Positions 37,809-39,836 of a stretch of DNA of 64,000 bases are shown in pieces; position 1 is the stretch's first letter, and each line of letters starts with the position of its first letter. This DNA is from an uncultured Rhizobiaceae group bacterium (GTDB lineage Bacteria > Pseudomonadota > Alphaproteobacteria > Rhizobiales > Rhizobiaceae). The stretch is taken from assembly GCA_947501445.1 (NCBI GenBank), contig CANMVS010000004.1, positions 310,001 through 374,000 of the forward strand, given 5' to 3'. A program made the position numbers and the translations under genes. The notes beneath the pieces were generated by a model. That model was not told the origin of the DNA, did no database searches, and saw nothing but the letters and a program-made list of their open reading frames with translations.

Positions 37809-37835
37809 CCGAATTTACTGCGGGAGGTGGCAGGC

Positions 37836-38408
37836 GTGAGCAAGCGCGGAGAATTGCGGCGCAGTCAATTGCTGGCCGCAGCGGCAAACCGGTTCTGGCA
37901 ATTTGGTTATGGCAGTACCAGCCTGGCCGATATAGCCAAGGATGCGGATGTGCCGATCGGCAATGTCTATTACTATTTTCGCACCAAACAGGAGATAGCC
38001 TGCGGTGTCGCTGATATTTTCGTGGATGAAACCCAGCTTATGCTGGAGGAAATCTGTGAAGTGGAGGCTGATCCACGACGGCGCATTATTGCCCTGTTGA
38101 GACGGTTGTCACAATCAAGCCGCAGCCGTGTCGAAAGGGGCTGTCCCATCGCTCTGTCGGTACGGGATTTTCGCACCGAGGCACCAGCCGCCTCTGCACG
38201 GGCCGCCGAATCCTTTGAACTTCTGACCGGATTTATCGGGCGTGAACTGCAACGCACCGGCTCACGGCCATCCATTGCACTGTCAAAAGCCCGCGAGATT
38301 ATTGTCGAATGGCAGGGGGGCATATCGCTGGCTCACGCGCTCGGTGATGCGACCATTCTGGCCGAGAGTTTTCGCCGGGCCGAACAACGGCTGGTTCAGA
38401 CCGGTTGA
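37836..38408 (+). CDS. TetR-family transcriptional regulator
   Basis: 190-aa repressor-type protein. The helix-turn-helix is STSLADIAKDADVPIGNVYYYFRTKQEI (residues about 28-55). The start chosen is GTG at 37836 with GGGAGG about 8 nt upstream; GTG at 37827 is too near the ribosome site. It follows the Trm112 gene by 27 bp and may be cotranscribed. The C-terminal dimer/ligand domain is of the TetR_C YxaF/LmrA-like kind by wording (RGCPIALSVRDFR), target unknown. Confidence 0.9.
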   Translation: MSKRGELRRSQLLAAAANRFWQFGYGSTSLADIAKDADVPIGNVYYYFRTKQEIACGVADIFVDETQLMLEEICEVEADPRRRIIALLRRLSQSSRSRVERGCPIALSVRDFRTEAPAASARAAESFELLTGFIGRELQRTGSRPSIALSKAREIIVEWQGGISLAHALGDATILAESFRRAEQRLVQTG

Positions 38409-38435: not shown

Positions 38436-38769
38436 CGCCGAGCGGCAGGTCGTGCCCCATCGAGAGGACACGGTTACCCGCGCAGCGGGCAAGCGCGAAC
38501 GCGCGTCGGGCCTGATGGCCCGCCCCGTCTGGAGCCAGCGCCGTAGGGCGCGATACGGCGTCAGACATTTATACAAAGCTATCAGTGATCGGGGTGCAGC
38601 GCAGAAGAGACGTCCTGTGAACACGTGGGTTTGGCGGGCGGGGTTGATTTGTTTTCTATTCACGGCGCACCGGCGCTTGCGCGCCTGCCTCCATAGGGGG
38701 CGGCCAAATTATTGGCCGGGCCACAGTCGTGGCCTGTTTGAGTGCCATGCAGGATGGCACCGGGTGCGG
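38436..38769. repeat. Hairpin-array element, copy 1
   Basis: About 330 bp made of consecutive short hairpins: CCCGC/GCGGG, GCGC/GCGC, CGGGCC/GGCCCG (38507-38512 / 38517-38522), GCGCC/GGCGC, GGCGC/GCGCC, GCCTCC/GGGGGC, GGCCAA/TTGGCC, GGCCAC/GTGGCC (38719-38724 / 38729-38734), GTGCCAT/ATGGCAC. No ribosome-bound ORF is supported inside. It repeats with an exact 358-bp offset in copy 2. Could be a structured RNA or a mobile repeat; unknown. Confidence 0.85.
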
Positions 38770-38793
38770 CGAACTGTGGACGTTGGTTAGATT

Positions 38794-39127
38794 TACCGAG
38801 CGGCACACTGTGCCCTGACGAGAGGACACGGTTACCCGCGCAGCGGGCAAGCGCGAACGCGCGTCGGGGCTTATGCCCCGCCCCGTCTGGAGCCAGCGCC
38901 GAAAGGCGCGATACGGCGCGAAGACATTTATACAAAGCTATCAGTGATCGGGGTGCAGCGCAGAAGAGACGTCCTGTGAACACATGGGTTTGGCAGGCGG
39001 GGTTGGTTGTTTTCTGCTCACGGCGCACCGGCGCTTACGCGCCTGCCTCCATAGGGGGCGGCCAAATTATTGGCCGGGCCGCAGTCGCGGCCTGACTGAG
39101 TGCCATGCAGGATGGCACCGGGTGCCG
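38794..39127. repeat. Hairpin-array element, copy 2
   Basis: Tandem partner of copy 1. Hairpin order is the same, but several stems differ by paired changes: CGGGGC/GCCCCG (38865-38870 / 38875-38880) and GGCCGC/GCGGCC (39077-39082 / 39087-39092). Loops differ too: GTAG to GAAA, TTGC to TTAC, TGAT to TTAT. Lies between two tetR genes. Confidence 0.85.
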
Positions 39128-39251: not shown

Positions 39252-39836
39252 ATGCCCTGGGAAAAGGATTTTGATGTAGAACATGCGGTTGATGATGCGA
39301 TGAGGGTTTTCTGGATGAAAGGCTATGAAGCCACGTCAATCAGTGATCTTGTCAAAGCGATGAACATCAACAAGGGCAGTCTTTACAATGCATTCGGCAA
39401 CAAGAAAGCGTTGTTTATCAAGGCATTGCTGAAATATGACCGGCAAAACCGCCAGGCGCTGCTGCGTCGGCTTGAGGCCATGGATGATCCGCTTGCCGCC
39501 ATCCAGGCATTGTTTGATGCGATGATAAAAGAGAGTCTTGGTGACCGCGAGTACAAGGGCTGCATGCTGGTCAATACGGCAATTGAATTACCGCACCATG
39601 CCAGTGATGTTCAGGAAATTGTGTCGTCAGCAATGGGTGATTTTGAAGGATTCTTCGCGCGTATGGTTCGCCGGGCGCAGGAAAGCGGGCAGGTTCGCGA
39701 TGCGCTGGACGCCGACACAATTGCAAAATCGCTGCTGTCACAGGTCGTTGGCCTGCGCGTCCTGTCGCGCGGCGTCTTTGATACCAGGAGCCTCGAAGCC
39801 ATACGTGCGCAGGCTTTGTCTTTCACAAAAGCATAG
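39252..39836 (+). CDS. TetR-family regulator of the AhpD-like gene
   Basis: 194-aa regulator. Helix-turn-helix TSISDLVKAMNINKGSLYNAFGNKKALF (residues about 28-56); the C-terminal half has VNTAIELPHHASDVQEIV, a pattern of the TetR_C_16/AcnR-like group. GAGAGG lies 8 nt before the ATG. Its own promoter and that of the next gene contain the same 34-bp block, so it probably represses itself and the AhpD-like gene. It starts 125 bp after the hairpin array. The inducer is unknown; reactive electrophiles or quinones are guesses from the target gene's family. Confidence 0.9.
   Translation: MPWEKDFDVEHAVDDAMRVFWMKGYEATSISDLVKAMNINKGSLYNAFGNKKALFIKALLKYDRQNRQALLRRLEAMDDPLAAIQALFDAMIKESLGDREYKGCMLVNTAIELPHHASDVQEIVSSAMGDFEGFFARMVRRAQESGQVRDALDADTIAKSLLSQVVGLRVLSRGVFDTRSLEAIRAQALSFTKA

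Follow-up and report, generated by a model that had tools for sequence, protein, structure and literature searches.

The tandem array at positions 38436-39127 of the window, the whole 64,000-nucleotide stretch of DNA analysed here, is built from a single folded module of about 75-100 nt that occurs twice in each repeat of about 358 bp, in opposite orientations (A forward, B reverse). The module core and its closing helix covary, the repeats are dispersed over at least 43 arrays in the source genome, clusters are rare in gaps between divergent genes, and the module is present in several alphaproteobacterial orders. We lean toward the reading that this is a dispersed repeat of the REP/BIME kind, which spread in trans, was amplified in tandem in this genome and is constrained as a folded single strand.

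Two direct copies, at 38438-38767 and 38796-39125, align in three blocks with an offset of 358 (359 for the middle block), with 306 of 333 columns identical, 25 substitutions and two gap columns. The unit alignment and genome matches delimit repeat unit 1 at 38436-38793 (+) and unit 2, which is truncated at the right end of the array, at 38796-39127 (+). The initial annotation had described tandem units of about 330 bp holding a series of hairpins, with two paired changes (C38511/G38518 to G38869/C38876 and A38723/T38730 to G39081/C39088) and three altered tetraloops (GTAG/GAAA, TTGC/TTAC and TGAT/TTAT). The units are there, these changes are exact and the hairpins are present in each unit; the true structural unit, however, is smaller, one module used twice in inverted orientation, which had been overlooked. 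Two paired changes between two copies are thin evidence alone, and it is the wider alignment that carries the structural claim.

The array is flanked by two TetR family regulator genes, at 37827-38408 (+; Pfam PF00440, E 7e-12) and 39252-39836 (+; PF00440, E 4e-13). Protein coding was rejected for the array itself: neither of the two ORFs across it (38452-38790 and 38742-39095) has a Pfam match at E ≤ 0.001, in agreement with the initial annotation, and full copies differ by short indels. Its reading that no known RNA family is involved also survives comparison with Rfam, as the sole match in the window at gathering score is a tRNA elsewhere and a permissive scan of the array region returned only two matches (E 6 and 8). 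In 16 further loci no family lies over the modules except LSU rRNA around an inserted pair in locus L131. No coding family was found for the module, and outside rRNA it overlaps no Rfam family.

The elementary unit has the arrangement H0-H1-H2-[H5[H3[H4]]], in which the closing helix H5 encloses H3 and H4 with a GGA/GNGA internal loop. In module A of unit 1 (38489-38564, +), placed by a match to our model R1 (E 1.7e-18; this copy is in the R1 seed), by RNA folding and by the family test of H5 described below, the parts are GCAA, H1 (38493-38504), H2 (38507-38522), H5 (38527-38530 with 38563-38566), GGA (38531-38533), H3 (38534-38536 with 38557-38559) and H4 (38538-38551); sequence and fold place hairpin H0 immediately upstream (38477-38489, +). 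Module A of unit 2 (38847-38922, +), also a seed copy, matches R1 at E 1.2e-19, with a fold z of -0.55 that is no better than shuffles. The reversed modules B of unit 1 (38659-38733, - strand) and unit 2 (39017-39091, - strand) match at E 2e-7 and 2.3e-8 and have fold z of -3.8 and -2.7, and sequence and fold place an H0-like hairpin upstream of the former (38742-38760, - strand).

The inverted pairing is evident from the R1 matches in the window, where both A modules are found forward and both B modules on the other strand, and where the matches ranking below these four (E 0.1 and 0.26) are at chance level. R1 was built from a MAFFT alignment of 13 modules, none of them a B module of the source genome. 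These seeds were picked for good alignment: seven of the 16 modules in a first alignment were dropped, with one hairpin misaligned, and four were added; all seven dropped modules were later recovered by R1. In relatives, the repeat falls apart into one module found in both orientations. Facing 5' ends of modules are mostly 70-73 or 106-114 nt apart and facing 3' ends 92-95 nt. H1 consists of four base pairs and H2 of six, their outer pairs being G-C or C-G in 120/122 and 119/122 modules of the wide set, and unpaired GCAA, GGA and GNGA are conserved across taxa. The module ends in GTGAG or GTGAA at its 3' side in 11 of 13 seeds, with GTCAG and GCGAA in the two window copies.

The earlier claim of selection on structure is strongly supported. 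A hand-written structure placed on the 13 seeds, in an alignment not fitted to structure, pairs 97.9% of 238 cells, and nine of its 19 pairs change on both sides. None of 500 shuffles reached the paired percentage, pair count, cell count or covariation score; the number of further pair types was reached by 13/500, and slid registers paired only 29-53%. In the wide set of 124 matches (122 distinct), whose alignment is fitted to the model, 95.5% of cells pair, 16 of 18 pairs have changed on both sides, and 0/500 shuffles reach any of five measures. Among 131 matches of the source genome (117 distinct) 99.3% of cells pair; no shuffle out of 500 reached three of the measures, and those counting pairs and pair types were reached by 63/500 and 36/500, respectively. 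When column pairs were ranked by a corrected G statistic, the top 11 (of 2585, wide set) and the top 7 (of 2728, source-genome set) were all modelled pairs. Of the 18 modelled pairs, three ranked below 150th in the wide set and eight did so in the source-genome set, as would be expected of pairs with hardly any variation.

Helix H5, which is absent from the model, joins the four bases preceding GGA with the four following GNGA, and covaries too. Each of its four positions pairs in 125-127 of the 128 parsed modules of the source genome (3 of 131 could not be parsed), against shuffle means of 60-122 and maxima of 76-125, and in relatives 25-27 of 27 pair (29 of 56 unparsed). In the wide set, where 57 of 124 modules parse, pairs one to three hold in 53, 56 and 48 of the 57, above every shuffle; the fourth pair, holding in 10/57, is not above every shuffle, and H5 therefore has about three pairs there. 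Under a looser parse, covering 267 of 311 modules, pairing over the three in-register pairs is 91%; shifted registers stay at or below 64%, apart from one that amounts to the same helix extended and gives 81%.

A blastn search of the source genome (6.8 Mb in 110 contigs) matches the unit 96 times. Within the places fetched (L039-L071 and the window), 96 nhmmer matches make up 43 arrays; each contains between one and five units, full or partial, and the period is about 354-358. This number is a lower bound: nine of the 43 arrays are flagged at a contig end, and R1 finds further places, some of them on contigs C26 and C47. R1 has at least 122 matches at E ≤ 0.001 in this genome, a count obtained by scoring 150 of 3628 first-look candidates. 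We aligned 42 nearly full copies; the one at L066 2773 appears by eye to be homologous only over about its first third. Array ends lie outside module cores in 34/43 cases on the left and 27/43 on the right, with about 58% expected from length. Among the remaining ends, three left and six right ones are contig ends, and five right ones are cut by one IS-like sequence. MITEs are marked by terminal inverted repeats and target duplications at their ends; by eye, the array ends are ragged and no target duplications were seen at them.

One IS-like end was found in eight copies, all at contig ends. Seven of them (L202, L203 and L205-L209, on contigs C4, C16, C20, C43, C28, C3 and C30) cut the repeat at the identical point, just after TTTTCTATT in the tail of module B, and the eighth (L204) follows CTATT at another place. 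Insertion of IS elements into REPs is known.

Beyond the source genome, searching alphaproteobacterial genomes with the model, a check that the initial annotation had proposed, showed that the module recurs in several orders, with strong covariation in the wider alignment. In the genus, seven of eight genomes match R1 at E ≤ 1e-4, with 117 matches in the source genome, 2-11 in six others and none in G002. Including the source genome each time, 30 of 150 genomes of an order sample match R1 at E ≤ 1e-5, three of 142 in a class sample match R1, and three of 41 in the class match at E ≤ 1e-4 with R2, a broader model derived from the wide alignment. These counts are low because filters were strict and about 32 to 119 candidates were scored per genome. 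An exact 23-nt word retrieved 74 stretches of named genomes, whose titles are largely those of Sphingomonadales, Maricaulis, Neomegalonema, Hyphomicrobiales and Rhodospirillaceae, and four of a viral collection; 69 of the 78 match R1 at E ≤ 0.001, with the word itself supplying part of the score. We discounted matches outside Alphaproteobacteria (Verrucomicrobia, Actinophytocola, Polyangium and Cupriavidus), which contain the word by construction and may be chance. A plasmid or phage origin of the window repeat was likewise rejected, with no match in the plasmid or phage collection. A related module pair from congener G007 does match six plasmid records of Hyphomicrobiales, showing that large replicons can carry the module.

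Left-flank orthologues in seven congeners were searched for the module at E ≤ 0.1, and only G003 gave a match, a weak one (E 0.015) about 780 nt downstream; the window array therefore looks lineage-specific. For two other arrays, the adjoining gene is shared by three species with an ORF identity of 80-87%, and by eye encodes a ubiquinone-type monooxygenase in one case and septation protein A in the other; movement is therefore not frequent. Congeners are about 74% alike, and no empty site was found at base resolution. Whole units are 87% alike among five picked from the source genome and 66% alike when this genome is compared with G004 (two units), whereas module cores are 92.7% alike within, 89.0% between and 84-93% at orthologous places. 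As the core differs far less than whole units, the spacers are genome-specific in their evolution and the core is conserved; homogenisation of units within a genome is possible.

Clusters favour convergent gaps outside the source genome and are rare in divergent gaps. Convergent, codirectional and divergent gaps number 30, 32 and 7 at the wide loci (control 27, 88 and 52), 13, 7 and 1 in relatives (control 2, 20 and 9) and 5, 16 and 1 in the source genome (control 5, 27 and 11). The corresponding Fisher p values are 2e-5, 2e-5 and 0.29 for convergent gaps and 5e-4, 0.04 and 0.05 for divergent gaps. The wide and relatives sets overlap, some of their loci being identical places (e.g., L131, L135, L160, L171 and L180). 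Genes in this test are long ORFs, and the one divergent array among 22 in the source genome becomes four of 23 under another gene-calling scheme.

A dedicated autonomous element was considered and rejected, the genes between arrays looking ordinary and metabolic from their translations. By eye, no transposase was found among representatives of the eight largest clusters into which the 526 neighbouring ORFs of 121 loci fall. At E ≤ 0.001 the source genome has a single Y1 transposase match (L092, contig C12); it contains an internal TGA, and no module was detected on its contig.

RNA folding of the window modules gives z of -2.1 (A1), -0.6 (A2), -3.8 (B1) and -2.7 (B2). For the antisense strands that were folded z is -2.2 and -2.8, and DNA folding gives -1.4 to -3.8. 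Folding energy is therefore uninformative on which strand or molecule is involved, and it is covariation that supports the structure. Within stems of copies retrieved by sequence alone, G-T exceeds A-C by 36 to 15 when read in the sense of the module (A 11:5, B 25:10, with H0 and H3 excluded from the B counts) and stands at 21 to 30 in the sense of the array; the associated p of about 0.005 assumes independent cells, which these are not, being few and from related copies. An earlier count of 55 to 24 over three sets was set aside because its matches were structure-selected. The bias is a hint that constraint acts on each module as a single folded strand, and it speaks against one transcript of the whole array being the only functional form.

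The suggestion of the initial annotation that the structure is most likely RNA is not borne out. Modules at gene ends could be transcribed and their fold could serve as a 3'-UTR stabiliser, RNase III substrate or attenuator, and we regard such an element acting at the RNA level as rather unlikely. It would account for the covarying helices with their conserved purine internal loop (GGA/GNGA), the rarity in divergent gaps, and the copies within rRNA transcription units and beside 6S RNA. However, single modules in codirectional gaps have no sense preference (14 antisense and six in the same sense), A and B lie in opposite orientations within one array with the slight G-T excess following each module's own strand, and antisense strands fold about equally well. 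The data are explained equally well by the folding of a single strand of DNA.

Less probable still is a chromosomal element acting as DNA, in which the arrays would be binding sites for gyrase, a nucleoid protein or a factor linked to methylation, in the manner of BIMEs, whose protein partners are IHF, gyrase and Pol I. The alternating inverted arrays resemble the BIME-2 of E. coli, and GANTC occurs within 80 nt 5' of 62/131 source-genome modules, in the spacer between B and the next A. Inside modules, however, the site is nearly absent (1/56 in relatives, 1/131 in the source genome and 0/124 in the wide set; 2/311 together), its excess in other taxa is at most weak (28/180 in 80-nt windows on the 5' side and 39/180 on the 3' side, with about 20 expected from the background rate), and double-stranded binding leaves covarying stems with varying loops unexplained. 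Quasipalindrome correction, the templated repair of imperfect hairpins that copies one arm onto the other, would yield compensatory changes in GC-rich hairpins without any function or selection. We consider it very improbable, given that the arms of H3 and H5 covary though other hairpins lie between them, that the unpaired GCAA, GGA and GNGA are conserved, and that the strand bias follows the module sense.

The other option raised by the initial annotation, a mobile structured repeat, appears to fit best, judging from the dozens of copies, their inverted modules and the patchy distribution. If the module is indeed a REP/BIME-like dispersed repeat, an enzyme acting in trans would have copied modules to new sites, recognising one strand in its folded form, in the way proposed for RAYT transposases and REPINs. 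Recombination or slippage could then have multiplied a placed inverted pair into A>-<B-A>-<B arrays, and the fold would be kept if only foldable copies spread or are tolerated. Insertion beside promoters may be selected against, so that copies would remain at gene ends, where they may be transcribed. More tentatively, the module could represent a hitherto undescribed structured nucleic-acid domain of several alphaproteobacterial orders, whose single-stranded H1-H5/GGA/GNGA fold is recognised by a protein; the inverted tandem arrays of the source genome (up to five full or partial units) might then be a product of selfish amplification or a multi-site protein platform.

Several known repeat systems share features with the module. 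REPINs, which go with RAYT transposases, are likewise inverted pairs of hairpin units and non-autonomous; here, in contrast, there is no GTAG tag, and no RAYT was found beside modules in the neighbour clusters read. The BIME and REP clusters of enterobacteria also consist of small palindromic units, extragenic, in tandem and alternating in orientation (PMC3733652). Our arrays fit the definition of BIMEs as extragenic clusters of palindromic units alternating in orientation, but their modules are multi-helix units of about 75-100 nt without the GTAG tag, as compared with single hairpins of 20-40 nt. Closer in taxonomy are the CGTC-tagged REPs, which belong to the same class, form inverted dimers, have hairpins in some spacers and lack a dedicated transposase, according to the accessible passages of PMC3733652. 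These describe one stem of 8-9 bp, almost always with A-T pairs at its first two positions, a loop of 4-5 nt and a CCA tail (PMC3733652), whereas the module has several shorter helices beginning with G-C pairs and falls outside that definition.

CIR repeats (Chen and Shapiro 2003) are intergenic, about 110 bp long with two arms and a linker, are found in Alphaproteobacteria including Caulobacter and Brucella, and carry GANTC at the terminal loop, as given in the accessible part of PMC2229807. Compared by description only, modules differ in lacking this hallmark inside them, and identity with CIR through GANTC was rejected on that ground. RIME and Bru-RS, also compared by description only, are similarly palindromic repeats lying between genes, in Rhizobium and Brucella. 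R1 finds nothing on pSymB of S. meliloti 1021, in a search that had no positive control and says little. In the accessible literature (titles, the starts of abstracts and passages, most subscription papers lying outside it) we found no description of the module, including in the accessible parts of PMC3733652, PMC5082802, PMC2267715, PMC2573895, PMC12306157, PMC2743711, PMC2245857, PMC2873474, PMC1273637, PMC5896051 and PMC2229807.

The present analysis provides a concrete, searchable model for a structured repeat common to Hyphomicrobiales, Sphingomonadales, Maricaulis-like and Rhodospirillaceae genomes, and the 43 inverted arrays of one strain form a natural set. Two questions thereby become testable, namely what spreads the transposase-less palindromic repeats of Alphaproteobacteria and in which form, RNA or single-stranded DNA, the fold is read.

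Some copies lie in or beside genes for stable RNAs. In Flavimaribacter, the intervening sequence in helix 9 of 23S rRNA is one inverted pair of modules (L131 3422-3641, with identical letters at L083 2823-3042). A general origin of helix-9 intervening sequences from the module was rejected, as it fits Flavimaribacter only: a 23S search matched 16 of 81 genomes, and 18 loci of the 15 genomes other than the source genome contain no module at E ≤ 1, some of these matches being short. In the rRNA operon of the source genome, the module is found only in the 16S-23S spacer (L212 635-706), by eye directly after a tRNA-Ala-like sequence, and the helix-9 insert is a plain hairpin. Sneathiella chungangensis has an inverted module pair between its 23S and 5S rRNA genes (L142 186-254 and 324-393), and in L138 (3037-3283) a module lies 15 bases after a 6S RNA gene, in antisense.

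In Sphingomonadales, modules occur near phage-type head genes (L120, L121, L134, L187, L188 and L189, and also L163), recognised by Pfam as portal and terminase in L120 and by similarity in the other loci; these clusters probably represent a gene transfer agent or prophage. At three places (L140 522-603, L154 148-361 and L091 2964-3048), H4 is replaced by another palindrome, which we take to resemble a REP unit, as if one repeat had entered another.
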